Of a stretch of 43,331 nucleotides of DNA, positions 8,394 to 43,190 are shown one piece after another. Made by a program: the position numbers and the translations under genes. The stretch spans positions 1 to 43,331 of IMG/VR virus record IMGVR_UViG_3300005516_000500; one strand, 5' to 3'. Source of the DNA: a virus. Below the pieces are notes generated by a model, which was not told the origin of the DNA, ran no database searches, and saw nothing but the letters and a program-made list of their open reading frames with translations. The first letter of the stretch is position 1, and each line of letters begins with the position of its first letter.

Positions 8394-8867
8394 ATGAACA
8401 ATACCAGCTTAAAAGACTTTCTCAAAAAAGAAGTCTCTAAGGTCCTTCAAGAAAAAGTCAAAAAAGGCAAAATGGGCCGCGGCGGCATTAAGAAAAAGAT
8501 CAAGGATATGAAGTCTTTGGCAGCCTCCAAGCCCCAAGAGTTAATGAAGAAGCTAGGCATTAAAGGTGCCCCGGGCGGTGCATCGGAGCATGATAAGGTT
8601 ATGAACTTAGTACGAAGTGCTATCTTTGGAAATGAAGTCATGTCAGCAGCATTTGGCGGCGCAAAAATTGTAACTACTAAAATCAAAGAAAAAGAGCAAA
8701 AAGTTGTGCATGTTACCACACGTAAAGTTAGTGAAAGAGATGGTGCAATGTATATTCTTCACACACTAACAGGGGCACATAATGCAGGTTTATTATCCGG
8801 TCTAAAGTCTGAGTTAGAAGTTTCAGTTGAAGGTGGTATGATTACTGTTGTTTTTAGTAATGAGTAG
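8394..8867 (+). CDS. Unrecognised small basic protein with N-terminal helix
   Basis: The start is the ATG at 8394, 7 bases after AAGGAG; the frame stays open upstream to 8364 but that start would lie inside the polymerase gene. The 157-residue product begins with an amphipathic helix (SLKDFLKKEVSKVLQEKVKK) and a Lys/Gly-rich basic segment to about residue 60. The second half is a small alpha/beta-like domain with a strand pair near the end (ELEVSVEGGMITVVFSNE). The basic first half could bind nucleic acid or pack in the virion; this is a guess. The N-terminal helix resembles those of several probable virion proteins at 38062-42804. No family is recognised. Confidence 0.6.
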   Translation: MNNTSLKDFLKKEVSKVLQEKVKKGKMGRGGIKKKIKDMKSLAASKPQELMKKLGIKGAPGGASEHDKVMNLVRSAIFGNEVMSAAFGGAKIVTTKIKEKEQKVVHVTTRKVSERDGAMYILHTLTGAHNAGLLSGLKSELEVSVEGGMITVVFSNE

Positions 8868-9489: not shown

Positions 9490-9726
9490 ATGTTTATGCG
9501 TAATTTTCTACTTTTAAGAGAGTATGTTAGATATCTTTTGGAAAAGTCTGATGAAGTCAAGGATGATCTTTTGACCGAACCTGACGACATTGAAGAAAGA
9601 GAAGAAGAGGATGTGGATGAATTTTCTGCAGCAGGTGCAGTTGCGGGTGCATCTACACCGTTGGGGACCGGCCCAAAACATCCTGGCTATGACAAGCTTA
9701 AGAAAAAAAAGAAAAATCGCAAATAA
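9490..9726 (+). CDS. Small acidic/basic protein, possibly virion-associated
   Basis: The 78-residue product starts with a hydrophobic-amphipathic helix (LLLREYVRYLLEK), then an acidic run (about residues 27-45), a small Gly/Ala/Thr linker, and a very basic end (KKKKKNRK). There is no clear ribosome site; a second ATG two codons in is an alternative start. The N-terminal LREYVRYLLE resembles the N-terminal helices of the probable virion proteins encoded at 38062-42804, so it may be a minor head protein or scaffold piece made from this early-type region. This is inference; no family is recognised. Confidence 0.5.
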   Translation: MFMRNFLLLREYVRYLLEKSDEVKDDLLTEPDDIEEREEEDVDEFSAAGAVAGASTPLGTGPKHPGYDKLKKKKKNRK

Positions 9727-16616: not shown

Positions 16617-17219
16617 ATGAAGTGGACAACACAATACGACCCGAAAATTAAAGAGCTAGAGCTTAGATATAATCCCGTTATTGTGAGGGTAAATAAGTTT
16701 GATGAAGAGTCAGCTAAGAAATTTGATCAGGATATAGCACGTGCTCATAATACTGGTCAAAAGGTAATACCTGTTGTTATTGATTCGTATGGCGGTCAAG
16801 TATACTCCTTGATGGCAATGATATCGGCAATCAAGCATTCAGAAAAACCTGTTGCTACAGTAGTTGAAGGAAAAGCTATGAGTTGCGGCGCAGTCTTATT
16901 TTCATTCGGTGAAGATGGCCTTCGATTTATGGATCCCAATGCAACTGTAATGATTCATGATGTTTCATCAATGGACTGGGGAAAAGTAGAAGAGTTAAAA
17001 GCGGGTGCAAATGAAGCAGATCGTCTTAATAAGACTATTTATACTATGATGGCAAGAAATTGTGGCAAGAAAGATGATTACTTCATGAAAATTGTCGATA
17101 AGAAAAAGCATGCCGACTGGTTCTTAGATGCCGATGAGGCAAAAAAGCACGGGCTGGCAAACCAGTTACGTGTCCCTTCTGTAAGGGTAAATATTGATGT
17201 AGATATAGACTTAGAGTAA
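16617..17219 (+). CDS. ClpP-like serine peptidase
   Basis: The 200-residue protein has the ClpP/crotonase-type fold and triad: Ser89 in GKAMSCGAVL, His114 in VMIHDVS and Asp167 in KHADWFLDADEAKKHGL. IDSYGGQVYSLMAMI gives the oxyanion and alpha-handle region. The length fits bacterial ClpP (about 200). It has a good ribosome site (TTAGGAG). Phages use ClpP-fold peptidases either as prohead maturation proteases or as general proteases. It lies away from the head genes, next to a lysis amidase, so a ClpP-type housekeeping or host-control role is equally possible. No partner ATPase is seen in the window. Confidence 0.88.
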   Translation: MKWTTQYDPKIKELELRYNPVIVRVNKFDEESAKKFDQDIARAHNTGQKVIPVVIDSYGGQVYSLMAMISAIKHSEKPVATVVEGKAMSCGAVLFSFGEDGLRFMDPNATVMIHDVSSMDWGKVEELKAGANEADRLNKTIYTMMARNCGKKDDYFMKIVDKKKHADWFLDADEAKKHGLANQLRVPSVRVNIDVDIDLE

Positions 17220-18619: not shown

Positions 18620-19350
18620 TGCTAGATTACTCTCTAAGAGCTGCTTATCGCAAACTTAAATTTTTAAATGGTGAGTTTAAAGATCATCAAGGTATATTTT
18701 CTCAATATGAAAATGATTTTAATGGTGTGGTTAAAATTGCACGCGGTAATATACGTGTACAGCAAGATCGACAGAGACTTAGAGAATGTCTAGAAAAGGC
18801 AGCACAACAAGAAGAAAAAGATCATGAGCTTCTAGAAGAAGATATTTCCGTTGACGATATACCACAAAAAAAGCTATATAGAAAAATTGCAATGGAATCA
18901 CATCCGGATCGTTATGATGTATTAGATGTGCCCAGTGAAGAAAGAAAGAATTTGCATGACATATTCAAAAAAGCTTCAGATGCATATGAAAGTGATAATG
19001 TTGCTGAAATGTTACGCTTAGCTTTAGAATTAGACATTGACATTAAAGACTTGGGCTTAGACGATAATGTTCTTTTAGATTATATGGATCGGGCAATCAA
19101 AAGAATAGAGTTTGATATTAAATCTATGGAAGAAACATTTGTTTGGTTGTGGGGTACTTCCTTAGGAAATCTTGAAGCAAGAGTAAGACTTTTAGATGCG
19201 TATCTTCGTCAAACCGGACATCCGCCCGTAGTCAATACAATCTTAAGAGATATTATTAGACACCATGAAGATCCCAATGCACCTAAAGATGGGTCTCGAG
19301 GCAGAAGCAAAAGAAAAATGGGCGAAAGACCAAAGAAGTTGATTAGATAA
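18619..19350 (+). CDS. J-domain (DnaJ-like) co-chaperone protein
   Basis: The 243-residue protein carries a J domain at about residues 80-140: KKLYRKIAMESHPDR with the HPD triad at 95-97, followed by a helix ending KKASDAYESDN and LRLALEL. HPD is the signature that stimulates the ATPase of DnaK/Hsp70. There is no Gly/Phe region or zinc domain, so it is not a full DnaJ; the ~75 N-terminal residues and the helical C-terminal half are unique and could choose the client protein. The end is very basic (RGRSKRKMGERPKK). It may bring host DnaK to a phage protein or assembly. The TGATG overlap links it to the previous gene. Confidence 0.8.
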   Translation: MLDYSLRAAYRKLKFLNGEFKDHQGIFSQYENDFNGVVKIARGNIRVQQDRQRLRECLEKAAQQEEKDHELLEEDISVDDIPQKKLYRKIAMESHPDRYDVLDVPSEERKNLHDIFKKASDAYESDNVAEMLRLALELDIDIKDLGLDDNVLLDYMDRAIKRIEFDIKSMEETFVWLWGTSLGNLEARVRLLDAYLRQTGHPPVVNTILRDIIRHHEDPNAPKDGSRGRSKRKMGERPKKLIR

Positions 19351-33892: not shown

Positions 33893-36800
33893 ATGTATTC
33901 TAAAGATAATATGACGCTAGCTGAAATTTCAAGAATTTGTACGGTAACATACGCAAAGTCTCTACGTGCCTGTGCAATAAGCCAAGGTCGATTGGTCGAG
34001 ACATTTCTAGAAACAAGAGATCTTGCCCTTCTTTTAGAAGAGGAAGAAGTAGCATTTACTGATGATGATGCTAATGCACTTAAGGCAGCAGTTGATGACT
34101 TAAAAAAGAAAGTCGATGATGTTAAAAAACTAAACGACTCAGTCTTAGGCGGCAAGATGAGCGGATCAGTCTCTGCCATTGAAGGATTAATGGGTGACAT
34201 ACCTGATGTTTCATCAATTGCCAGCCTTGCAACATCTGGCGACGGAGAAAAGCTAAAGGACGCGCTAGAAGAGCTTAATGAGCCTGTCAATAAGGTGGGC
34301 GAAGCCATAGCAATTATGACCCAAGCTCTGCAGGATGTTGCTCAAAATATTGCCGCAGCTGCTAAAGGACTAACAGACGAGCAAAAAGAGATGACCGTCG
34401 CAGAGCTTGCTGACAAGGCCAAAAATAAGGAGCTTAAGTCAGAGGATGGAAAGGAAATCGATTTTCCCGATCCTGACGCGATTAAGAAGGGCGCATCAAA
34501 GGCATTAGTCACCCCCGGGTGGTTCCAAAAGTCTCTTAAGTCTGGGATGGATGCGGCAAAGAAAGATGCAGGAGGATTTTTCGGTAAGGCTATGTCGTTT
34601 ATGAAGGGGCTCTTTGGCGGCGGCGGGAGTGATAAACTAATCGATCCTGAAACATTTGCTACAGAATTTATGGAGCTTACACTAGAGGAGCTTGAGGCAG
34701 GAGCAAAAGCCGCAGGTGACTTGTCTAGTTCTATGCAGGAAACTGTCGCGTCAAATGCTGAAGCAACCGGTGCAGCACAAGCCTCCGCTGCAGCCGAAGC
34801 CGAAGGCGACGATGGTAAGGAAGGAGAGCTCCCAGACTCTGCTAAGAAGGCTGAAAAGCGACCTGATTTTGACATTTCAGACCTTATAAAACTTTTATCT
34901 ATTACAAATGCTTCCGCTGCTAAATCTCTAGAGGGCTTACCAGAAGAAGAACAAGAAGCAGCCATGACTGATGATCTTGAAGCAATTCAAGGTGGTGAAG
35001 TTAGTCCTGAAGAGGCTTTAGACGGTGTTGCTGAAGAAGCCGAAGAAGCTGCTGATGCCCCTAAATGGTCTGAAATTTCAAAAGACTTTTTAGATGATCT
35101 AGGCGATGAATCAAAACCGGACGGCGAAGAGCTAATTGGCAATCTTAAAGATGATGAAGATTGGGCACAAAAAGTAGGTGCAGCAATCAATATGTCAGAA
35201 AGGTTTGTTCCTTCTAGGCTTCCAATGACAATTCTTCTTCAAGAAGACGTTGCTTTTGATGATATTATGACAGCAGCTTCATCCATAGTCGATGATGAAG
35301 CCAAAGCCAAGAAGTCTGCAATTACATTAGCACAATCAATTATTGATGCAGGTGTTGAAGTTAGTGACGTTCCAAGTGAAGATGAAGACGGTGAGGCGCC
35401 TGAGGCGAAAGAAGTTGAAGCTGCCTTAGATGAACTAGAACCTGGGCTTACATCTTATATAGACGATAATCAGGATATTATTGCAAAAGCACTTGCAGAT
35501 CTGCTTAAAGGAAATGAAGAGATTGCTGCCAAAGTTGCAGAGCTTCTCGCAGCAGATGAGGGTGAACGATCAGGTGAGGCAGAAGAGGTCGCTGATCTTG
35601 CCGATGATGCAGGAGTCTCACAGGATGATATCGATGCAGCCATTGAACAAGGAATTGAAGATGCCACAGAAGATCTTTCAGATGAAGTTGCTAGCGAAAT
35701 TGGTGATGGCCGAGAAGAGGCATTAACAAATTATCAAGCCGCTGAAGAAGCAGACGATGAAGATCTAGATGACAAAATAGCTGAAATCATATCAGATATC
35801 TCAGGTGAGTTAGGAGTTGATCCTGAAGAACTTGTAGCTGCTCTTGATGATGATGAAAAAATGGCAGAGTTCTTCATGGCGCTTGAAGATGATGTAAATA
35901 TTGATGATTTAGCTGAAGCAATTGAAGAATTACAAGAACTTCTTGCGCAGGCAGTTGAAGATGCAGGAGTTGCAGCAGAGGGAGAGTCTCAGCCTGGTGA
36001 AATGACGCCTGAAGAAAAAGAAGGTGCCATAGAAGCTATAAAAGATACAACAGAAAAGTGGCAAGAGGCAAAAGATGACGACGATGAAGCCAAGAAAGAA
36101 GAGGCTGAAGAGCTAATTGCAGCTGTTGCAGAAGAACAAGGTATTGATACAGATACGCTAATCAGTATCATTGAAGATCCAGAAGAAAATCTTGAAGATG
36201 CTGTTAAAGAAAATGAACTAGAAATTGATAAGCTTCAGGGTGCAATTGAAGATTTAGCAAATGAAATTGCAAACATGCTTAGCCGAGAAATTGAGGATGA
36301 ACCTGGAAATTTAACAGATGATGAAAAGGATGAGCTAGAAGCACTCTTAGAACCTGTTGCTGATGACTATGAAGAAGTAGAAGCTGAAGACTCTGATGAA
36401 GCTGAGGGTGTCATAGAAGAGCCGGCCCAGGAATTAGGTGTAAAACCTGATGAGCTTGGAGACGCTTTAGAAGATATCGATGCCTTGGATGCTTTAGTTA
36501 CTGATAAAGAGCTTAAGTTCTCTGATGTAAAGGATCAGTTGGTTGCTGCACAAGAAAATCTTGAAGGTGGTGCCGAGGGAGAAGAAGATGATCCTGCTGA
36601 AGTTGAAAAGATTGTAAGTGCTGCTACTGATTCCGCTGAAGACCCAGATGATTCAGAAGAAGCTGTTGAAGATGCAATAACACAAGCTATTGATAATTGG
36701 GAAGATCAGCTTTCAGATAGACAAAAGAAAAGAGTCAATTCTAAAGGAAGGTTAGATCAACTTAAGCAGGCAGTTGCAGATGCTACACCACCTCAAGTTG

Positions 36801-38023
36801 ATCCTCCAGCTGACCCTGAAGATGTACATAAGGCAGGTGAAGATTGGGGTAAACAACATAAGATTGATGATCCCACTAGCGCCCTAGGAAATCCCAAAAA
36901 TTTCTCTCCGGAGCAAATGAAAAAGCTTATTGATCTTTTTCCAGATATTGTACAAGATGTACAAGGCGAAGAGGGCGAAGAGGACGAAGACAAGGGTGAA
37001 AAGAACACCTATAAGCGCGGAGATTTTGAAAAGAAGCTAGAAGATGCATTTACTGCTGCAATGCCTGACTTAGCAAAGTCTGGTGGTGATATGTTGGCAG
37101 TTGCACTTGGCGACTGGATCATGAATAACGATGTTGAAGAAGTTGTTTTAGAAAACAAAGACTTCAGCAAGATTCTTTTAGAAAAGTACGACTTTAAAGC
37201 AATTTCAGATTATATGAAGGGCGAAATTAGTGATCTTGCTAAAGAGCTTGGCTATGAAGGAAAAGAAGATGCAGTTCTTGCTGACTTCTTAAGAGCAGTT
37301 GAGCCAGTCTTGGGAGAGGAAGGAATTGAAATAAACGGAATTCCTGATGACTCTACAGAAAAAGATGATGGCGACGGAAAACCTCAATCTGAAGATGAAG
37401 AAAAAGAGACCGATGACGCAACTGAAAAAGCATCTGCTGCTGCTGAAAAAGAAGCCGCGTCTAAAGGGCTTTCACCTTCCGCAGGCGCTCAAGAAATTGT
37501 TGCACAATGGGCTGAGTCTGGCAAAACACTTTCAAAGAATGTATCAAAGAAGCAACGAGAAAAGCTTAAGGGTGCATTAACTCCTATTCTAGATACTGCT
37601 GCTGAAAAGCTTAAGGGCGAAGTAGAAAAAGCAGTGGATGATTGGCGCGGAGCTCAAAAGGTATTGCAGAAACCAAACGTTTCAGATAAGCAAATCAATA
37701 CGCTCAAGCAAAGCCTTTCAGATTTTATATCAACTGTTGTTAAGTCAGAATCGCGAAATCTCTCTCAAACAAAGAAAATCTTGATCGAGAAAATTACAAA
37801 ATTTTTAATATCACAGGCAGGATTTACACGAGTTGAGCTCAGAACAATGGATCAAAAAACGCTTTTAGAAAATTTTGTTCATAGCTATTGCAATATACAA
37901 ACACACTCTCTGGACAGGAGAGGCATGCTGGTTGAGGTTTTAGATACAAGAACCAATTTTAAGACCAGTTATGCAGAAGAATCAACAGCGGACCGATGGA
38001 CGCGTCTGGCAGGATTATCATGA
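33893..38023 (+). CDS. Giant acidic repeat protein, probably virion-associated
   Basis: The 1376-residue protein is extremely rich in Asp, Glu and Ala and has long helical stretches. The N-terminus has several LLE/FLE-type helices (LVETFLE, ALLLEEEE). A Gly-rich hinge and hydrophobic patch (KGLFGGGG) lie near residue 240. Residues ~639-945 hold three degenerate copies of a ~100-residue unit, each starting like ELGVDPEEL (639), EQGIDTDTL (748) and ELGVKPDEL (847). The C-terminal ~120 residues are less acidic (KKILIEKITKFLI...). Neighbouring proteins are acidic too and may be head proteins, so a head-core or scaffold role is plausible; no family is recognised. GGAG precedes the ATG. Confidence 0.6.
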   Translation: MYSKDNMTLAEISRICTVTYAKSLRACAISQGRLVETFLETRDLALLLEEEEVAFTDDDANALKAAVDDLKKKVDDVKKLNDSVLGGKMSGSVSAIEGLMGDIPDVSSIASLATSGDGEKLKDALEELNEPVNKVGEAIAIMTQALQDVAQNIAAAAKGLTDEQKEMTVAELADKAKNKELKSEDGKEIDFPDPDAIKKGASKALVTPGWFQKSLKSGMDAAKKDAGGFFGKAMSFMKGLFGGGGSDKLIDPETFATEFMELTLEELEAGAKAAGDLSSSMQETVASNAEATGAAQASAAAEAEGDDGKEGELPDSAKKAEKRPDFDISDLIKLLSITNASAAKSLEGLPEEEQEAAMTDDLEAIQGGEVSPEEALDGVAEEAEEAADAPKWSEISKDFLDDLGDESKPDGEELIGNLKDDEDWAQKVGAAINMSERFVPSRLPMTILLQEDVAFDDIMTAASSIVDDEAKAKKSAITLAQSIIDAGVEVSDVPSEDEDGEAPEAKEVEAALDELEPGLTSYIDDNQDIIAKALADLLKGNEEIAAKVAELLAADEGERSGEAEEVADLADDAGVSQDDIDAAIEQGIEDATEDLSDEVASEIGDGREEALTNYQAAEEADDEDLDDKIAEIISDISGELGVDPEELVAALDDDEKMAEFFMALEDDVNIDDLAEAIEELQELLAQAVEDAGVAAEGESQPGEMTPEEKEGAIEAIKDTTEKWQEAKDDDDEAKKEEAEELIAAVAEEQGIDTDTLISIIEDPEENLEDAVKENELEIDKLQGAIEDLANEIANMLSREIEDEPGNLTDDEKDELEALLEPVADDYEEVEAEDSDEAEGVIEEPAQELGVKPDELGDALEDIDALDALVTDKELKFSDVKDQLVAAQENLEGGAEGEEDDPAEVEKIVSAATDSAEDPDDSEEAVEDAITQAIDNWEDQLSDRQKKRVNSKGRLDQLKQAVADATPPQVDPPADPEDVHKAGEDWGKQHKIDDPTSALGNPKNFSPEQMKKLIDLFPDIVQDVQGEEGEEDEDKGEKNTYKRGDFEKKLEDAFTAAMPDLAKSGGDMLAVALGDWIMNNDVEEVVLENKDFSKILLEKYDFKAISDYMKGEISDLAKELGYEGKEDAVLADFLRAVEPVLGEEGIEINGIPDDSTEKDDGDGKPQSEDEEKETDDATEKASAAAEKEAASKGLSPSAGAQEIVAQWAESGKTLSKNVSKKQREKLKGALTPILDTAAEKLKGEVEKAVDDWRGAQKVLQKPNVSDKQINTLKQSLSDFISTVVKSESRNLSQTKKILIEKITKFLISQAGFTRVELRTMDQKTLLENFVHSYCNIQTHSLDRRGMLVEVLDTRTNFKTSYAEESTADRWTRLAGLS
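35807..36730 (+). repeat. Three degenerate ~100-codon coding repeats
   Basis: Within the acidic protein, units start at residues 639 (nt 35807), 748 (36134) and 847 (36431), spaced 109 and 99 residues. Each opens with a G-[IV]-x-x-[DE/T]-x-L helix cap, then an acidic helix, and a second helix such as DLAEAIEELQELL. The DNA repeats are diverged, so the duplication is old. Confidence 0.5.
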
Positions 38024-38061
38024 GTAAGCAAATTCTTAAAATGCTCCGAAAGGAGTACACA

Positions 38062-38430
38062 ATGAGATTACTTGAGGCATTAACAGAAACAGATCTGTTA
38101 GACAAATCAGGAAAGGTAGTTGTTGGTCAAGGATTAAAAGTCCGACACAAAGATTCACAATTTGAATATACTATAGACACTATTGAACAGGGTCCTGACG
38201 GTAAGTACAAAGTAACTCTCCGTAATCCGGATGCACCAAGATTTGAACCTGCTGCATCTGATGCTCTATTAGGTGAGGAAGATGGTTTATTGGCTGCGCC
38301 ACCCGCTCCCTCAATTGAAGCTGAGCCTGCAGTAAAGGTAAAACCTGAAGAAGAAGAGCCACTAGTGGGGCCTGATGATTTAATTGTAATAGATCAAGAA
38401 GAGTTCGAAAAGGATTACGAGGTAAGATAA
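38062..38430 (+). CDS. Small acidic protein with N-terminal helix, possible virion protein
   Basis: From ATG 38062 (AAAGGAG 7 bases upstream) the product has 122 residues. A second candidate is ATG 38020, which overlaps the previous stop as ATGA and adds a helix MSKQILKMLRKEYT. The N-terminus has MRLLEALTETDLL, then a small beta domain (about residues 20-65; KVVVGQGLKVRHKDSQFEYTI), then an acidic Pro-rich tail. The stop overlaps the next gene (TAATG). The beta part looks like a small KOW/SH3-type barrel, but this is uncertain. Confidence 0.55.
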   Translation: MRLLEALTETDLLDKSGKVVVGQGLKVRHKDSQFEYTIDTIEQGPDGKYKVTLRNPDAPRFEPAASDALLGEEDGLLAAPPAPSIEAEPAVKVKPEEEEPLVGPDDLIVIDQEEFEKDYEVR

Positions 38431-39116
38431 TGAGTTTAGAAAAACAAATAAGAGAAGCAGTTGCCGCGGCGCTTGGAGTCAATAAGCTTAATGAGGCATA
38501 CGTTACAAAAGCTAAGAAGTTTAAGCTAGCAACGGAATTCATATCAGACAAAGTAAAGACAGCACGACAAAAAGATTTTGAAGCATATGTAGATGCTCTA
38601 AACGAGACCAGCGCGAGATTAGATACAGTATCAAGAGAAGATGCTGATCGTCATGCTTCTGAATATAGACAGCTTAGATGTGATGAAGTTTATTGTCTCA
38701 ATGCATCATTCTTAAGAGCATTTCATTTTGAAAATATAAGCGATCTTCAAAGTGAACTAACCATGGATTCATTAGCATTTATGCGTCTAGAGCGTGATTT
38801 TGGATCTTTTGATGAGTGGCAAAAGGATTTTATTGCTGCTGGTTTGTCATCTCGAGATGGCTATACTATTACAGCTTATAATGTATTTTTAGGTAGATAT
38901 ATGAATGTTGTAATTGATGGCGAGTCTGAAAATATTCCTGTAGGATGTTTACCTATCATATGTATTGACGTTTCAGAGGGTGCATACTTTAAAGACTACA
39001 TGGATGATAGAAAAACTTATCTAGTTGCTATGATGAAAGAACTTGACTGGGAAAAGATCGATGGGCGTATCAAAAAAACAGAAAAGGTCGCAAAAATTTA
39101 TGGAGCTGCTAAATGA
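38430..39116 (+). CDS. Fe/Mn superoxide dismutase-like protein lacking metal ligands
   Basis: The second half of this 228-residue protein follows the Fe/Mn-SOD C-terminal domain closely: FGSFDEWQKDF (124-134), then LPIICIDVSEGAYFKDYMDDRKTYL (174-198) and LDWEKI. Active SODs have DVWEHAY; here Asp180 is kept but the His is Gly184. The N-terminal ligand motif NHTFYW is matched by NASFLRAF (91-98), with Ala92 in place of His. At least two of four metal ligands are lost, so catalysis is unlikely. The N-terminus is an amphipathic helix (LEKQIREAVAAALG). It lies between acidic, probable virion proteins, suggesting a structural use of the fold. GAGGTAAG precedes the ATG. Confidence 0.75.
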   Translation: MSLEKQIREAVAAALGVNKLNEAYVTKAKKFKLATEFISDKVKTARQKDFEAYVDALNETSARLDTVSREDADRHASEYRQLRCDEVYCLNASFLRAFHFENISDLQSELTMDSLAFMRLERDFGSFDEWQKDFIAAGLSSRDGYTITAYNVFLGRYMNVVIDGESENIPVGCLPIICIDVSEGAYFKDYMDDRKTYLVAMMKELDWEKIDGRIKKTEKVAKIYGAAK

Positions 39117-39790
39117 AAAAACAAAAATCACTAGCTGATCTTCTTTTTGAGGATGATCGTCTGCTTAAGGAAGAAGAAGACGATGATATTTTTGGCGACG
39201 ATGATGATGGCGACGACGAAGCTGATGACGAAGGTGGCGACGACGAATCCGAAGATGATGAAGGTGATGAAGACGAAGAGGGCGAAGACGACGATTCCGA
39301 CGAAGAAGGAGGTGATGACGATTCCGACGGAGACGACGACGATAAAGAAGAAACACCCTCAGGTCCTGCTGATGACACTATCGATGGTGAGGTGAATAAC
39401 TTATTAGCAGATTTCGAAGCAGAAGCAGTTACATCAGCAGAACAAGCAGAAGAGCTGCAAGGTGAATCTGTTCGATTTAGTAATATGCATAAGCATCCAG
39501 TTTCAAAGCTTCTATTTGAAGGTGACCAACCATTTGATGTATCACACTTTGCAAATAATATTGCAAGAGTAATTGACAATTACCAGACACTTATGGATGT
39601 TGAAAAAATGATTTTCGATAAGGCAAAAGACTTTTTAGAAGCAAAATATGGTGAGCAGGTTGCAAAAGAGTTTGAAGATACCATGGAACAAGATCACCAG
39701 ATGACCTTTGTAACTGGTGCGCCTAACGATTCATCTGCAGAAAACTCAGATACACTTCCTGTTGCTGTTGGTGCAATGACACCTGCCTAA
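39113..39790 (+). CDS. Poly-acidic protein, prohead-core-like
   Basis: The 225-residue protein opens with SLADLLFEDDRLLKEE and continues with an almost pure Asp/Glu/Gly tract to about residue 80. A helical domain follows (about 90-200), beginning HKHPVSKLLFEGDQPF, which repeats the LLFE motif, then FANNIARVIDNYQTLM and a helix with KAKDFLEAKYGEQ. Very acidic internal proteins are typical of phage scaffold or head-core proteins. The D/E tract is built from GAT/GAC/GAA codons that make the DNA almost repetitive. It overlaps the SOD-like gene by ATGA with GGAG upstream. Confidence 0.6.
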   Translation: MKKQKSLADLLFEDDRLLKEEEDDDIFGDDDDGDDEADDEGGDDESEDDEGDEDEEGEDDDSDEEGGDDDSDGDDDDKEETPSGPADDTIDGEVNNLLADFEAEAVTSAEQAEELQGESVRFSNMHKHPVSKLLFEGDQPFDVSHFANNIARVIDNYQTLMDVEKMIFDKAKDFLEAKYGEQVAKEFEDTMEQDHQMTFVTGAPNDSSAENSDTLPVAVGAMTPA

Positions 39791-39803
39791 TTGAGGGGCC
39801 AAA

Positions 39804-40088
39804 ATGTCAAAACTAATTGATTTTGAAACAAAAAAGTCAGTCCATATTAATCTAACAAAATCTACTCATTCTGGCTTAAGAATTGAGCTCTTTGAAAGAG
39901 GTCTTTCTATGCAAGAGGTCTTTAATGCATTAGCATCAGCTATCTGCGAAGGAGACAACTACATTCATAAGCTTTTGGATGAAATTCAAGAAAATAAACG
40001 ACAAAAAACCATAAAGCAGGTAACAAATTCGGATGCAGAGTCTATCTTTAACGTAATAGAAGATCAAAGTCCATTAGATAAGAGGTAA
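39804..40088 (+). CDS. Ribbon-helix-helix (Arc/MetJ-type) small protein
   Basis: The 94-residue protein starts with a strand KKSVHINLTKSTHSGLRIEL (about 10-29) and a helix pair with GLSMQEVFNALASAICEGD, the pattern of ribbon-helix-helix DNA-binding proteins, which act as dimers. The remaining helix and polar tail may bind a partner. It could regulate phage promoters, for example the dyad elements at 8874 and 9742, or have a packaging or structural role given the virion neighbours. GAGGGG lies 7 bases before the ATG. Confidence 0.55.
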   Translation: MSKLIDFETKKSVHINLTKSTHSGLRIELFERGLSMQEVFNALASAICEGDNYIHKLLDEIQENKRQKTIKQVTNSDAESIFNVIEDQSPLDKR

Positions 40089-40089
40089 T

Positions 40090-40350
40090 TTGTTCGGTTT
40101 ACTCAATAAAAATCGTCTTCTTAACGCAGAAATTGAAATTGAAAAATTGCGATTGGAAAACGAACTATTACGTAAAAAACTCAGTGAAGCAGAGGCTGCA
40201 ATTCAAATTATTGCTACAAATCAAGCCTATTTAGCTAATGAAGTTGCTAATTTGGTTGTTCCTGCTGCAAGCTCTACAGCTAGAGATCCTTTAGATGAGT
40301 ATCTTAAGAAGTTTGGAGATGATGATGATAGTGGGGGCTACTTAAACTAG
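40090..40350 (+). CDS. Small coiled-coil protein
   Basis: The 86-residue product starts at TTG with AAGAGGT just upstream, one base after the previous stop. Residues ~8-40 form a leucine-heptad coiled coil (LLNAEIEIEKLRLENELLRKKL), then a small helical part and an acidic C-terminus with FGDDDDSGG. No motif is recognised; a small structural or chaperone role is possible. Confidence 0.5.
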   Translation: MFGLLNKNRLLNAEIEIEKLRLENELLRKKLSEAEAAIQIIATNQAYLANEVANLVVPAASSTARDPLDEYLKKFGDDDDSGGYLN

Positions 40351-40382
40351 TGACTGTCCAACTTGAACAAAAGGAATCTTCA

Positions 40383-40586
40383 ATGGTAGAAAAAATGAAG
40401 GCATTTGCTGATCGTTATGTAGAACGCTTTATTTCTAGAAAGTTTTTAGCATGGTTGACAGCTACAGGCCTATGTTTCGGCGGAATGGTAACTAGTGATA
40501 ATTGGGTAGCAGTAACTTTAGCATATATTGGAACACAGGCTTTAGTAGATATGGCAACACAATGGAAGCATGGTCCTAGAAGTTAA
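40383..40586 (+). CDS. Holin-like small membrane protein
   Basis: From ATG 40383 (AAAAGGAA 8 bases upstream) the product has 67 residues; a GTG at 40350 would overlap the previous stop. There are two short hydrophobic segments (FLAWLTATGLCFGGMV and WVAVTLAYIGTQALV) joined by a polar turn, preceded by a basic amphipathic helix and ending in charged residues. This size and layout fit class II-type holins that let the endolysin at 17221 reach the cell wall. The next two genes look spanin-like, which strengthens the reading. No homologue was identified. Confidence 0.55.
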   Translation: MVEKMKAFADRYVERFISRKFLAWLTATGLCFGGMVTSDNWVAVTLAYIGTQALVDMATQWKHGPRS

Positions 40587-40588
40587 AA

Positions 40589-40993
40589 ATGGGATGGGGT
40601 TCTACAATAGTATGGCTAAAGTCAGTCTGGTCATGGTGTAAAAAATATTGGCAAATAATCGTAGGCTTTTGTTCTGCTTTGCTTATATTTGTATTGACCA
40701 GAAAGCCTCCGGATCCACGTGCTGTCTTAGAAAAGTCTAATGAGACACACAAGAAGGAAGTTGATGCTCTTAGACGAGCACACGAAGCCGAAATTGCTGC
40801 TAGAGCTGCCGCACTAGATCGACAAAAAGAAACCATGAAGGATGTTGAAAAAGCTTTTGAAAAAGCAAGTAAAGATCTAACCACAAAGAAGCGCAAAGAG
40901 ATTACTAAAATCATTAAAGAAAATGACGGCGATCCAGATGCCATCACAGAAAAGCTATCAGAGCTTACAGGTTTTAAGATCAAGAATGATTGA
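40589..40993 (+). CDS. Inner-membrane spanin-like (Rz-type) coiled-coil protein
   Basis: A 134-residue protein with one N-terminal membrane segment (about residues 21-38: WQIIVGFCSALLIFVL), preceded by aromatic and basic residues, and a long charged helix (about 45-115) with an Ala/Glu/Arg-rich coiled coil. That is the layout of i-spanins that disrupt the outer membrane together with an outer lipoprotein. The gene begins three bases after the holin-like gene. A matching o-spanin lipoprotein was not found, so the role is inferred from topology. Confidence 0.5.
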   Translation: MGWGSTIVWLKSVWSWCKKYWQIIVGFCSALLIFVLTRKPPDPRAVLEKSNETHKKEVDALRRAHEAEIAARAAALDRQKETMKDVEKAFEKASKDLTTKKRKEITKIIKENDGDPDAITEKLSELTGFKIKND

Positions 40994-41031
40994 TCAATAA
41001 ACACTTGCGTATCCCTACGTAAATTTAGCTT

Positions 41032-41499
41032 ATGAAAACTAAAAAATACGTATCAGTTATCACCATATTTGCGTATCTTATGTGTGCCATGCCCATGTCA
41101 GCATTGGCAGACAATACAGAAGAAAAAATTACGTCTGTAAGAAAAGGGCAAGTAGCACCATATAGTGGAACACTGTTTAGTACTGCTGCAGCAGCAAGAC
41201 TTCAGGTAGATTTAAAATTCACTGAACAATCTTGTAAAATTGAAACAGATCGTCAGCTTGGTCTTTTGAGGTCAAAGCTTCAACTTGATATTGATCTTCT
41301 TAGTGCAAAAATAACAAGTCAGACACAGCTACATGAAGATATTTTAAAGGCTAAGAACGACCAGATTAAATTTTTGGAGGCTTATTCTTTAGAAACCAAG
41401 TGGTATAAATCAAATGAGTTTTGGTTAGTTACGGGATTAGTTGCAGGTATTGCAGTGACCGCAGTTGCAGGATGGTCCCTAGGACAAGCAGATAACTGA
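41032..41499 (+). CDS. Secreted/membrane coiled-coil protein, possible lysis partner
   Basis: The 155-residue protein has a signal peptide (KTKKYVSVITIFAYLMCAMPMSALAD, cleavage likely after ALA at residue 26), a GQVAPYSGTLFSTAAAA segment, a long helix (about 60-120), and a C-terminal membrane segment (WLVTGLVAGIAVTAVAGW). It should be exported and anchored with its coiled coil in the periplasm, which suits a spanin-like or lysis-control role. No Shine-Dalgarno sequence precedes the ATG. It follows the spanin-like gene. Confidence 0.6.
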   Translation: MKTKKYVSVITIFAYLMCAMPMSALADNTEEKITSVRKGQVAPYSGTLFSTAAAARLQVDLKFTEQSCKIETDRQLGLLRSKLQLDIDLLSAKITSQTQLHEDILKAKNDQIKFLEAYSLETKWYKSNEFWLVTGLVAGIAVTAVAGWSLGQADN

Positions 41500-41503
41500 T
41501 ACA

Positions 41504-41531
41504 TTGCAGTTACTAATGACATATTTATCAT
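41504..41531 (+). promoter_or_regulatory. Weak promoter-like pair
   Basis: TTGCAG (41504-41509) and TATCAT (41526-41531) are 16 bases apart, just upstream of the GGGAG ribosome site for the gene at 41551. Both hexamers deviate from consensus, so this is a candidate only. Confidence 0.3.
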
Positions 41532-41550
41532 AAAGACACGGGAGTGTGGA

Positions 41551-42804
41551 ATGAAAATTAAAAAGCATATACTTCGACAAGCTGTTCGAATGGCTTTATT
41601 TGAAGATGTTGGACATCGTATGGATACGGCGTACGGAATTTATGACAGACCCGGACCTGTTGATTCTGCTGATGAGGATTTTGACCCAACAGTTCCGGAT
41701 GAGGTACCTTTGCAACCAACTGAAATGATGAGTAATCAATTGGCAGTAGAACGACCGCCCATTGAAGATGAAGATTTCAAGCCTGACAATACAGCTCAAT
41801 TAAGTAAAAGCGCTGCAGCAATAGCACAACTTGTACCAGGTGATCAAATTGGATTTTTCTATAAAGAACTCCACAAGCTTTTAGATACTGCTACTGAAAA
41901 ACAAAATGCCCCCGATACAAAAGGGCAGCTTGGTGATCAAGAATCTGAAGCAGAAAAAGGTGAAACAGAGCCTCTTACACCTAAGGGTGAAGAAAAGAAA
42001 GAGGTAAAAGAAGAAACATTTCGCCACATGGTTCGAGAAATTCTTCTGGAAATGTTAAGTGATGACGATAAAGCAGAGTTTGAAGAGTATCGATCTGGCG
42101 CCGGCGCAGGCGGCGGCGGTGGTGATGACGGCGGTGGTGGTGGACCTGAGGGAGAAACTCTAGAAGATCTAGCAGATCAAATGGGATTTTCAGGTGCCCC
42201 TGGCGTTAGACAGCATATCGACAAGATTCTTAAGAAGACAAATTATTTTGCACTTAAGGTTAAACCTGAAGATATGAACGGGCTTCGTGATTTCGCAACC
42301 GGTGAGTATATAGATTTGATGGCTGCTACTGAAATGATTGATGCAGAGGATGTAGTTGAGCTTCAGCAGGCTCCCAATGCTGTTAATGAGCTGGATTCAT
42401 TTCGTTTCTTTTTTGTTGCTGCATTCTTGATGCCGGCATATCAAAAAGTATCGAGAGAAGCGCGAAAGAGAATTAAAGATCATATGGCTCAGCTAGGAAT
42501 TCCTGCAAAGCTTGACCAAAGTGTTATGAATCAGGTTACAGGTGGGGCGAAAAGGGATAGACAATCGCTTAAGATCAAACTAGATAAACTAATTAGTTCT
42601 GGTGATGTACCTGCGGAATCAAGAGATCAAATTATTGACAGTCTCGATAATCGATTTATAGAGCTAGAAGAAATGGGACAACTATCCGATGATCTAGTTC
42701 AGCAATCGCGTGCAATATGGGACGGCATGCCAGCTGCAAAAAGAGAGGCAGTTTTATCACAAGCTCTAAATCAAACAGCAGATTTTCAGGAGCAAGGTGC
42801 CTAA
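41551..42804 (+). CDS. Probable virion protein with N-terminal helix and Gly-rich linker
   Basis: The 417-residue protein begins with HILRQAVRMALFEDV, the same type of helix as its neighbours, and has a second one at about residues 150-165 (FRHMVREILLEML). A Gly/Asp-rich linker of about 20 residues follows near 186. The second half (about 205-400) is helical, without recognisable motif. The start has GGGAGTGTGG upstream. It lies in the acidic virion-type cluster; a head-core or internal protein is plausible, but no family is recognised. Confidence 0.6.
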   Translation: MKIKKHILRQAVRMALFEDVGHRMDTAYGIYDRPGPVDSADEDFDPTVPDEVPLQPTEMMSNQLAVERPPIEDEDFKPDNTAQLSKSAAAIAQLVPGDQIGFFYKELHKLLDTATEKQNAPDTKGQLGDQESEAEKGETEPLTPKGEEKKEVKEETFRHMVREILLEMLSDDDKAEFEEYRSGAGAGGGGGDDGGGGGPEGETLEDLADQMGFSGAPGVRQHIDKILKKTNYFALKVKPEDMNGLRDFATGEYIDLMAATEMIDAEDVVELQQAPNAVNELDSFRFFFVAAFLMPAYQKVSREARKRIKDHMAQLGIPAKLDQSVMNQVTGGAKRDRQSLKIKLDKLISSGDVPAESRDQIIDSLDNRFIELEEMGQLSDDLVQQSRAIWDGMPAAKREAVLSQALNQTADFQEQGA

Positions 42805-43190
42805 TGAGATCATTGCAGGAAATTATGGGAAATTATTTTGAAGAAGATAAAAGAAAGCCACTTAGGGAGTCTTCTATTACGCTTACAATAAATACACCCA
42901 TTACTCCTAAGCAATTTGATTGGGAACGATTGTCTGACCCTGAGAGACTAGGAAAAACATTTGAATTTAAGGATCATCATGAGTATAGAAGCTTTCTAAC
43001 AGAGCTATTTGCTTATGAGTCTGAAACAGGACATTATGCCAAAGTAATATCAGAGTTTCCAAAAGTTCATATTGAAGTTTATACACATGATGTCAATAAC
43101 ATCACAGAAAGAGATTTAGAGTATGCGGCAGAGATGGATGACATCCGACGCGATGTTGCATATTATGTAGAGGAGGATGAAAATGAGTGA
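42804..43190 (+). CDS. Pterin-4a-carbinolamine dehydratase-like protein, altered active site
   Basis: From ATG 42804, overlapping the previous stop as TAATG with GGAG and AAGG upstream, this gives 128 residues. After an N-terminal helix (SLQEIMGNYFEED) the sequence follows the PCD fold: FDWERL (38-43), LGKTFEFKDHHEYRSFL (49-65), GHYAKVISEF (76-85), VHIEVYTHDVNNITERDLEYA (88-108). PCD enzymes have HHP at the active site; ungapped alignment gives His77-Tyr78-Ala79 here, so the second His and Pro are lost. The Thr-His of the last strand (94-95) remain. Weak or lost enzyme activity is likely. It resembles the SOD-like gene at 38430 in having a tag-like helix and virion-type neighbours. Confidence 0.7.
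   Translation: MRSLQEIMGNYFEEDKRKPLRESSITLTINTPITPKQFDWERLSDPERLGKTFEFKDHHEYRSFLTELFAYESETGHYAKVISEFPKVHIEVYTHDVNNITERDLEYAAEMDDIRRDVAYYVEEDENE

Follow-up and report, generated by a model that had tools for sequence, protein, structure and literature searches.

Why do proteins as different as a superoxide dismutase (SOD)-like protein, a pterin-4a-carbinolamine dehydratase (PCD)-like protein and acidic proteins, encoded in one block of virus genes, start with similar amphipathic helices? The question arises in IMGVR_UViG_3300005516_000500, a complete virus record of 43,331 bases (hereafter, the window, that is, the entire stretch of DNA analysed), which is probably a piece of a larger genome and encodes, among other enzymes, a DnaE-type polymerase, RecA, ClpP (at 16617) and thymidylate synthase. 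A preliminary description, made from the sequence of the window alone, proposed that the common helix directs these proteins into the prohead and is removed by cleavage of the T4 type, after L/I-x-E. Analysis of the window together with its relatives leads us to conclude, with a probability of roughly 0.8, that the shared start is a cleaved capsid-targeting propeptide of the T4 kind that is used genome-wide.

A shared N-terminal tag

Relatives of the window were recruited via its SOD-like protein and DnaE and include contigs of 120-293 kb coding for the T4-type prohead protease gp21 and major capsid protein gp23; because these two proteins are encoded, we consider the relatives to be large T4-type phages. 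By gp23, Flavobacterium phage immuto (MW353175; 45% identity) is the closest relative in culture. Motif analysis was performed on 12 whole contigs, to which three were added later, for a total of 15 related contigs; genes and gene starts were taken from a simple calling script, with the precision of start positions limited accordingly. Proteins were clustered into families by the similarity of residues 31 onward, one N-terminus per family was used in motif discovery, and N-termini shuffled independently served as a control.

Unbiased motif discovery in the 12 contigs produced K-I-T-K-R-Q-L-R-R-I-I-R-E-E in about 15-17% of the families, with a log-likelihood of 1671-1711 for the real N-termini vs 367-395 for the shuffled ones and 382-517 for C-terminal or mid-protein stretches. 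A 15-wide profile matched 206 of the 1928 genes (147 of 964 families) at 8 bits or more, compared to 3 matches after shuffling; an 18-wide profile applied to the 15 contigs recovered the tag, K-I-T-K-x-Q-L-R-x-I-I-R-E, in 159 of 1298 families, compared to a single shuffled one. The motif mostly starts at residue 2 of the protein, and when 100 unrelated carriers are aligned, the consensus is essentially MKITxxQLRxIIxE alone. Some proteins carry K-L-L-R-E-Y-I-R-x-L-L-x-E in a register identical to that of the main tag. We consider this sequence a variant rather than an independent motif because, with the strong carriers removed, no second motif exceeded the C-terminal control (485 vs 483).

In the window alone, the signal is modest: the pattern hydrophobic(-6), hydrophobic(-3), [LI](-2), x, E(0) is found within the first 30 residues of 6 of the 46 genes (1.8 expected, p=0.009). 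The tags of the window are more divergent than those of the relatives, so that only one gene scores at least 8 bits against the profile of the relatives, and most of the tags are confirmed by orthologs. Thus, the observation that very different proteins start alike holds (all seven peptides listed in the preliminary description were located in their genes), and the phenomenon is larger than originally supposed.

Tags are present on 5-13% of the called genes in most contigs, and each contig longer than 200 kb encompasses 24-34 tagged genes, mostly, in islands on one strand. A DNA pattern of the tag matched at least 120 stretches in IMG/VR vs 8 stretches in 4 metagenome-assembled genomes (MAGs) among 84,980 genomes; a tblastn search of cultured phages with a 23-aa tag gave a single weak match. 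Bacterial MAG contigs in GTDB, NHDW01000006.1 and PBIO01000025.1, carry phage tag islands, and one MAG contig combines 14 tags with gp21; these are probably misbinned phage contigs. Six proteins from six of the related contigs contain a second full tag inside the sequence. Such internal tags often retain the Met and follow an E-G-like stretch, and the proteins appear to be fusions of neighbouring tagged genes that are, possibly, cut apart in the head.

A protease site at the end of the tag

The tag ends in L/I-x-E, the site of the T4 prohead protease, in 150 of the 159 tagged families vs 226 of the 993 untagged ones, a difference that is partly built into the motif. Evidence independent of the motif definition comes from the residues downstream and from orthologs. 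At positions +3 to +10 from the Glu of the tag, Glu accounts for 37.8% of the residues located two places past a Leu or Ile vs 10.2% of those elsewhere (odds ratio 5.4, p=1.6e-20), without enrichment of Asp, Lys, Arg or Gln after L/I-x in the same stretch; in untagged proteins, the odds ratio for Glu is 1.6. The result was replicated with 167 independent open reading frames (ORFs) of other contigs (Glu, 35.6% vs 12.3%, odds ratio 4.0, p=1e-17), among which Asp is depleted (odds ratio 0.4). The additional L/I-x-E sites peak at +4/+5 and +7/+8 past the first Glu and drop to the background level beyond. Because the enrichment is specific for Glu, whereas helix formation by itself should promote charged residues of every kind, these data favour cleavage over a plain helix.

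The SOD-like protein provides an individual example. In all 13 members of its family, the helix is followed by a linker of variable length and then by [LIV]xE/[AS] (here and below, the slash marks the predicted cut) immediately before the conserved domain, and Glu 22 of the window protein is invariant in 12 sequences. In the AlphaFold2 (AF2) model, with a mean predicted local distance difference test score (pLDDT) of 85.5, residues 3-15 form a helix, and the only stretch with pLDDT below 50 consists of residues 19-23, KLNEA; the remainder has an SOD fold. These observations support the earlier claim that many of the helices end in T4-type sites.

Link to head genes and nature of the carriers

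All 9 tagged contigs of at least 190 kb encode a gp21-type protease (PF03420), and a small gene adjoining gp21 bears the tag itself. The gp23 of the relatives retains L-[RK]-E/A near residue 60, and their gp22 starts with AIAE/A.

The carriers are of a distinct kind. Altogether, the 100 tagged proteins matched five Pfam families, including HEAT repeats and ribosome modulation factor, compared to 98 for 100 length-matched untagged proteins, among them portal and ribonucleotide reductase. The tag is nearly absent from enzymes and structural proteins, and the carriers include no replication or metabolism families; the tag is therefore borne by orphans, in line with a cargo role. The match to ribosome modulation factor involves one of the 100 aligned proteins (E=1e-4) and makes this protein a plausible host-takeover cargo.

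Comparison with known systems

In the T4 record, the internal proteins IPII and IPIII start with MKTYQEFIAE, in which targeting depends on residues 4 and 7, and processing by gp21, which cuts after L/I-x-E, on residues 8 and 10 (PMC9026906). These residues are located at -6, -3, -2 and 0 from the Glu, positions that are occupied by L, I, I and E in the new tag; thus, the spacing of the key residues is equal although the remaining residues differ. Similarly to the T4 capsid-targeting sequence of IPI, IPII and IPIII, the tag is short and N-terminal, with unrelated cargo behind it, and T4-type gp21, gp22 and gp23 are encoded in the same genomes; in T4-type phages, the targeting sequence is known to stay constant while the internal proteins that follow it vary (PMC3012670). 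Unlike the T4 sequence, however, the new consensus, KITKxQLRxIIRE, spans 13 residues and is strongly basic, and instead of the handful found in T4, there are tens of tagged genes per genome, often with several cut sites and with internal second tags in apparent fusions. The tag profile gave 0-1 matches in each of T4, P-SSM2, HTVC008M and RM378. We also observed that a 54-aa ORF of T4 (18966-19130) starts with MKTFKEFIKED, which is very near the internal-protein targeting sequence.

In phiKZ and SPN3US, many head proteins and ejected proteins are processed by a relative of gp21, and propeptides contain several redundant cleavage sites, as documented for phiKZ (PMC9026906), which resembles the pattern described here. 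However, phiKZ cuts after S/A-x-E, and the descriptions of phiKZ and SPN3US consulted for comparison mention no shared helical tag. In P1, the first 30 residues of DarB suffice to carry a reporter into the head (PMC9024508), but, unlike the phages analysed here, P1 appears to lack a separate scaffold, and no shared tag family has been described. Immuto shares with the tagged phages a T4-type capsid gene, the protease and a gp23 site, IVSE/AN; unlike those of the relatives, its tags are fewer and spelled differently, with several N-termini resembling MKKSQLRQIIKEAL or NF[DN]LKKFLVENKLT. In this cultured phage, four or five proteins begin alike, with NF[DN]LKKFLVENKLTxNSxLLxE, apparently a second family of tags equipped with L-x-E sites. 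The kind of system is known, whereas, judging by our searches, the sequence, scale and spread of the tag are new; no mention of the tag strings was found in the literature searched, a search that did not extend to subscription literature and preprints.

Weighing the explanations

The tag, its distribution, the specificity and conservation of the sites and the presence of gp21 in the relatives were computed directly; the route that they suggest is the following. The helix, which is basic and amphipathic (K-[IL]-[TS]-[KR]-x-[QY]-[LI]-[RK]-x-[IL]-[IL]-x-E and its relatives), would bind the prohead assembly core and thereby bring each cargo protein into the prohead. A gp21-type protease would then cut after the Glu of at least one L/I-x-E site, at the helix end and within the linker, to release the mature proteins (SOD-like, PCD-like, acidic and dozens of orphans) inside the head, where they might stay or be injected with the DNA. 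The Glu-specific enrichment, the conserved Glu before the SOD-like domain, the disorder of the modelled site, the gp21-type proteases of the relatives, the tag on the protein next to gp21, and the scarcity of tags on enzymes and structural proteins all support this propeptide reading, which is, in essence, that of the preliminary description.

Several results weigh against it. The literature searched contained no virion proteomics for these phages. No gp21 was detected in 9 of the 25 tagged contigs, all shorter than 150 kb, and the window itself, a fragment, has neither gp21 nor gp23. In the replication set, Lys after L/I-x is mildly enriched as well (odds ratio 2.1). Column-based conservation over all families is weak (6 of 18 tagged vs 20 of 103 untagged families conserve an [LIV]xE within residues 1-60), probably, due to the variable length of the linkers. 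Furthermore, the gp23 propeptide, considered as a tag carrier on the basis of the 15-wide score, was rejected given that it performed no better than shuffles with the 18-wide profile.

The most credible of the competing explanations, although itself improbable, is a permanent, uncut amphipathic helix that docks the proteins at the inner membrane or some other assembly site. The hydrophobic moment of the tags is indeed raised (0.49 vs 0.32 for shuffled sequences), and their first half is basic; however, acidic residues are unfavourable at the end of a plain helix, and such a helix leaves unexplained the enrichment of Glu after L/I-x, the conserved L-x-E/A before the SOD-like domain and the conserved internal LLFE sites. 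We give very little credence to a role of the tag in a phage-encoded Clp system, as a degron or an adaptor signal, despite the ClpP in the window and the ClpS and ClpA/B-like (AAA+ unfoldase) families among the untagged proteins of the relatives: a degron predicts neither an L/I-x-E site bordering a folded domain nor the presence of the tag on the small neighbour of gp21, and the tag co-occurs with gp21 across contigs.

Gene starts duplicated recently might instead have spread a DNA element, be it a promoter, a recombination site or a translation enhancer, in which the helix is encoded by coincidence; the clustering of tags in gene islands and some shared codon bias, with Arg at motif position 9 encoded by AGA in 56 of 58 cases, would fit this. 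The codons of the tag vary, nevertheless, at Ile, Leu, Gln and Lys, and because synonymous codons vary, it is the peptide that is under selection; with divergent flavours of the tag retaining the peptide pattern and full internal tags located far from gene starts, an element of this type is most unlikely. Many tagged proteins are orphans whose place of action is unknown, as would suit a sorting signal for a destination other than the head, such as a phage replication compartment, with L/I-x-E recognized by another protease, but the lack of replication and metabolism families among the carriers and the same spacing as in the T4 head tag make this highly improbable, too.

Tagged proteins of the window

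The genes at 33893-43190 form a block, the order of which is retained in eleven other contigs, with individual genes absent in places. Predicted tags and sites in this block and in two genes outside it are listed in Table 1.

Table 1. Predicted tags and cleavage sites encoded in the window (aa, amino acids)
Protein	Predicted feature	Coordinates	Strand	Support
8394-8867	N-terminal tag SLKDFLKKEVSKVLQE/	8406..8453	+	8 of a family of 9 with [LI]xE after a tag-like helix
9490-9726	LLREYIR-type tag LLLREYVRYLLE/	9508..9543	+	Register as in the relatives' LLREYIRxLLxE tags
1376-aa acidic protein, 33893-38023	Site ALLLE(E)/ closing the N-terminal region; earlier site GRLVE, 33986-34000	34022..34042	+	Orthologs
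38020-38430	Tag and sites SKQILKMLRKEYTMRLLE/ALTE/	38023..38088	+	[LI]xE here in all 10 family members
SOD-like protein, 38430-39116	Helix SLEKQIREAVAAALG, 38433-38477; predicted cut KLNE/AYV, Glu 22 ending at 38495	38433..38495	+	AF2 model, orthologs
Acidic protein, 39113-39790	N-terminal tag KSLADLLFE/	39125..39151	+	[LI]xE in 13/13 family members
Acidic protein, 39113-39790	Internal site VSKLLFE/GD before the C-terminal domain	39500..39520	+	SLxxLLxE-like stretch in 13/13 family members
417-aa protein, 41551-42804	N-terminal tag KIKKHILRQAVRMALFE/	41554..41604	+	12.4 bits with the tag profile
417-aa protein, 41551-42804	Internal second tag FRHMVREILLE	42019..42051	+	Helix 154-168 between disordered flanks
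PCD-like protein, 42804-43190	Degenerate tag SLQEIMGNYFEE and site KPLRE/S before the domain	42810..42869	+	Orthologs

For the gene originally placed at 38062, the tag stands but the start does not: orthologs put it upstream, at 38020 (MSKQILKMLRKEYTMRLLEALTE...), so that the tag is longer than the peptide first quoted. In the family of the 1376-aa acidic protein, all 8 members have [LI]xE sites in the N-terminal region, mostly, of the FLLxE type. Several relatives of the 39113 acidic protein carry tags such as RRLIVEEL. In the 417-aa protein, for which structure comparison found no matching fold, a helix is predicted at residues 5-16, followed by disorder; Glu 18 is nearly invariant, and LFE is present in most family members. 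Both internal copies noted previously are upheld: that in the 39113 protein has an equivalent in every family member, and that in the 417-aa protein recurs as tag-like sequences in several orthologs, for example, NLRRYLKGLLKE.

The SOD-like protein belongs to the Fe/Mn SOD fold (Pfam Sod_Fe_C, 2.4e-15; Foldseek match to the Fe-SOD 1coj, template modelling score 0.78) but lacks the full set of metal ligands His, His, Asp and His: DVSEGAY replaces DxW[EQ]HAY, and the aligned His is missing, in an alignment judged by eye. Several orthologs retain both DxW[EQ]H and the aligned His; dismutase activity is therefore probably retained by some of these proteins and absent from others. The PCD-like protein contains the Pterin_4a domain (PF01329, 3.6e-14). 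The peptide noted at its start is present, but the tag is degenerate: [LIV]xE is kept by most, not all, orthologs, and in about half of them, LxE closely precedes the domain. Back-translated patterns of the PCD-like protein recovered no viral contigs.

Implications

The broader proposition, to which we assign about an even chance, is that a reusable tag loads tens of unrelated proteins into the heads of widespread uncultured T4-type phages, that a large, fast-changing set of effectors is injected into the host, and that some fused tagged pairs are cut in the head. The tag lists more than 150 candidate families of head or injected proteins, predicts their mature N-termini and is a source of new targeting peptides for loading phage heads. 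If the propeptide reading is correct, the tag alone would mark a large new set of virion-borne proteins that probably enter the bacterium, and a sequence search could tell which orphans of giant T4-like phages are carried by the virion and pass into the host.

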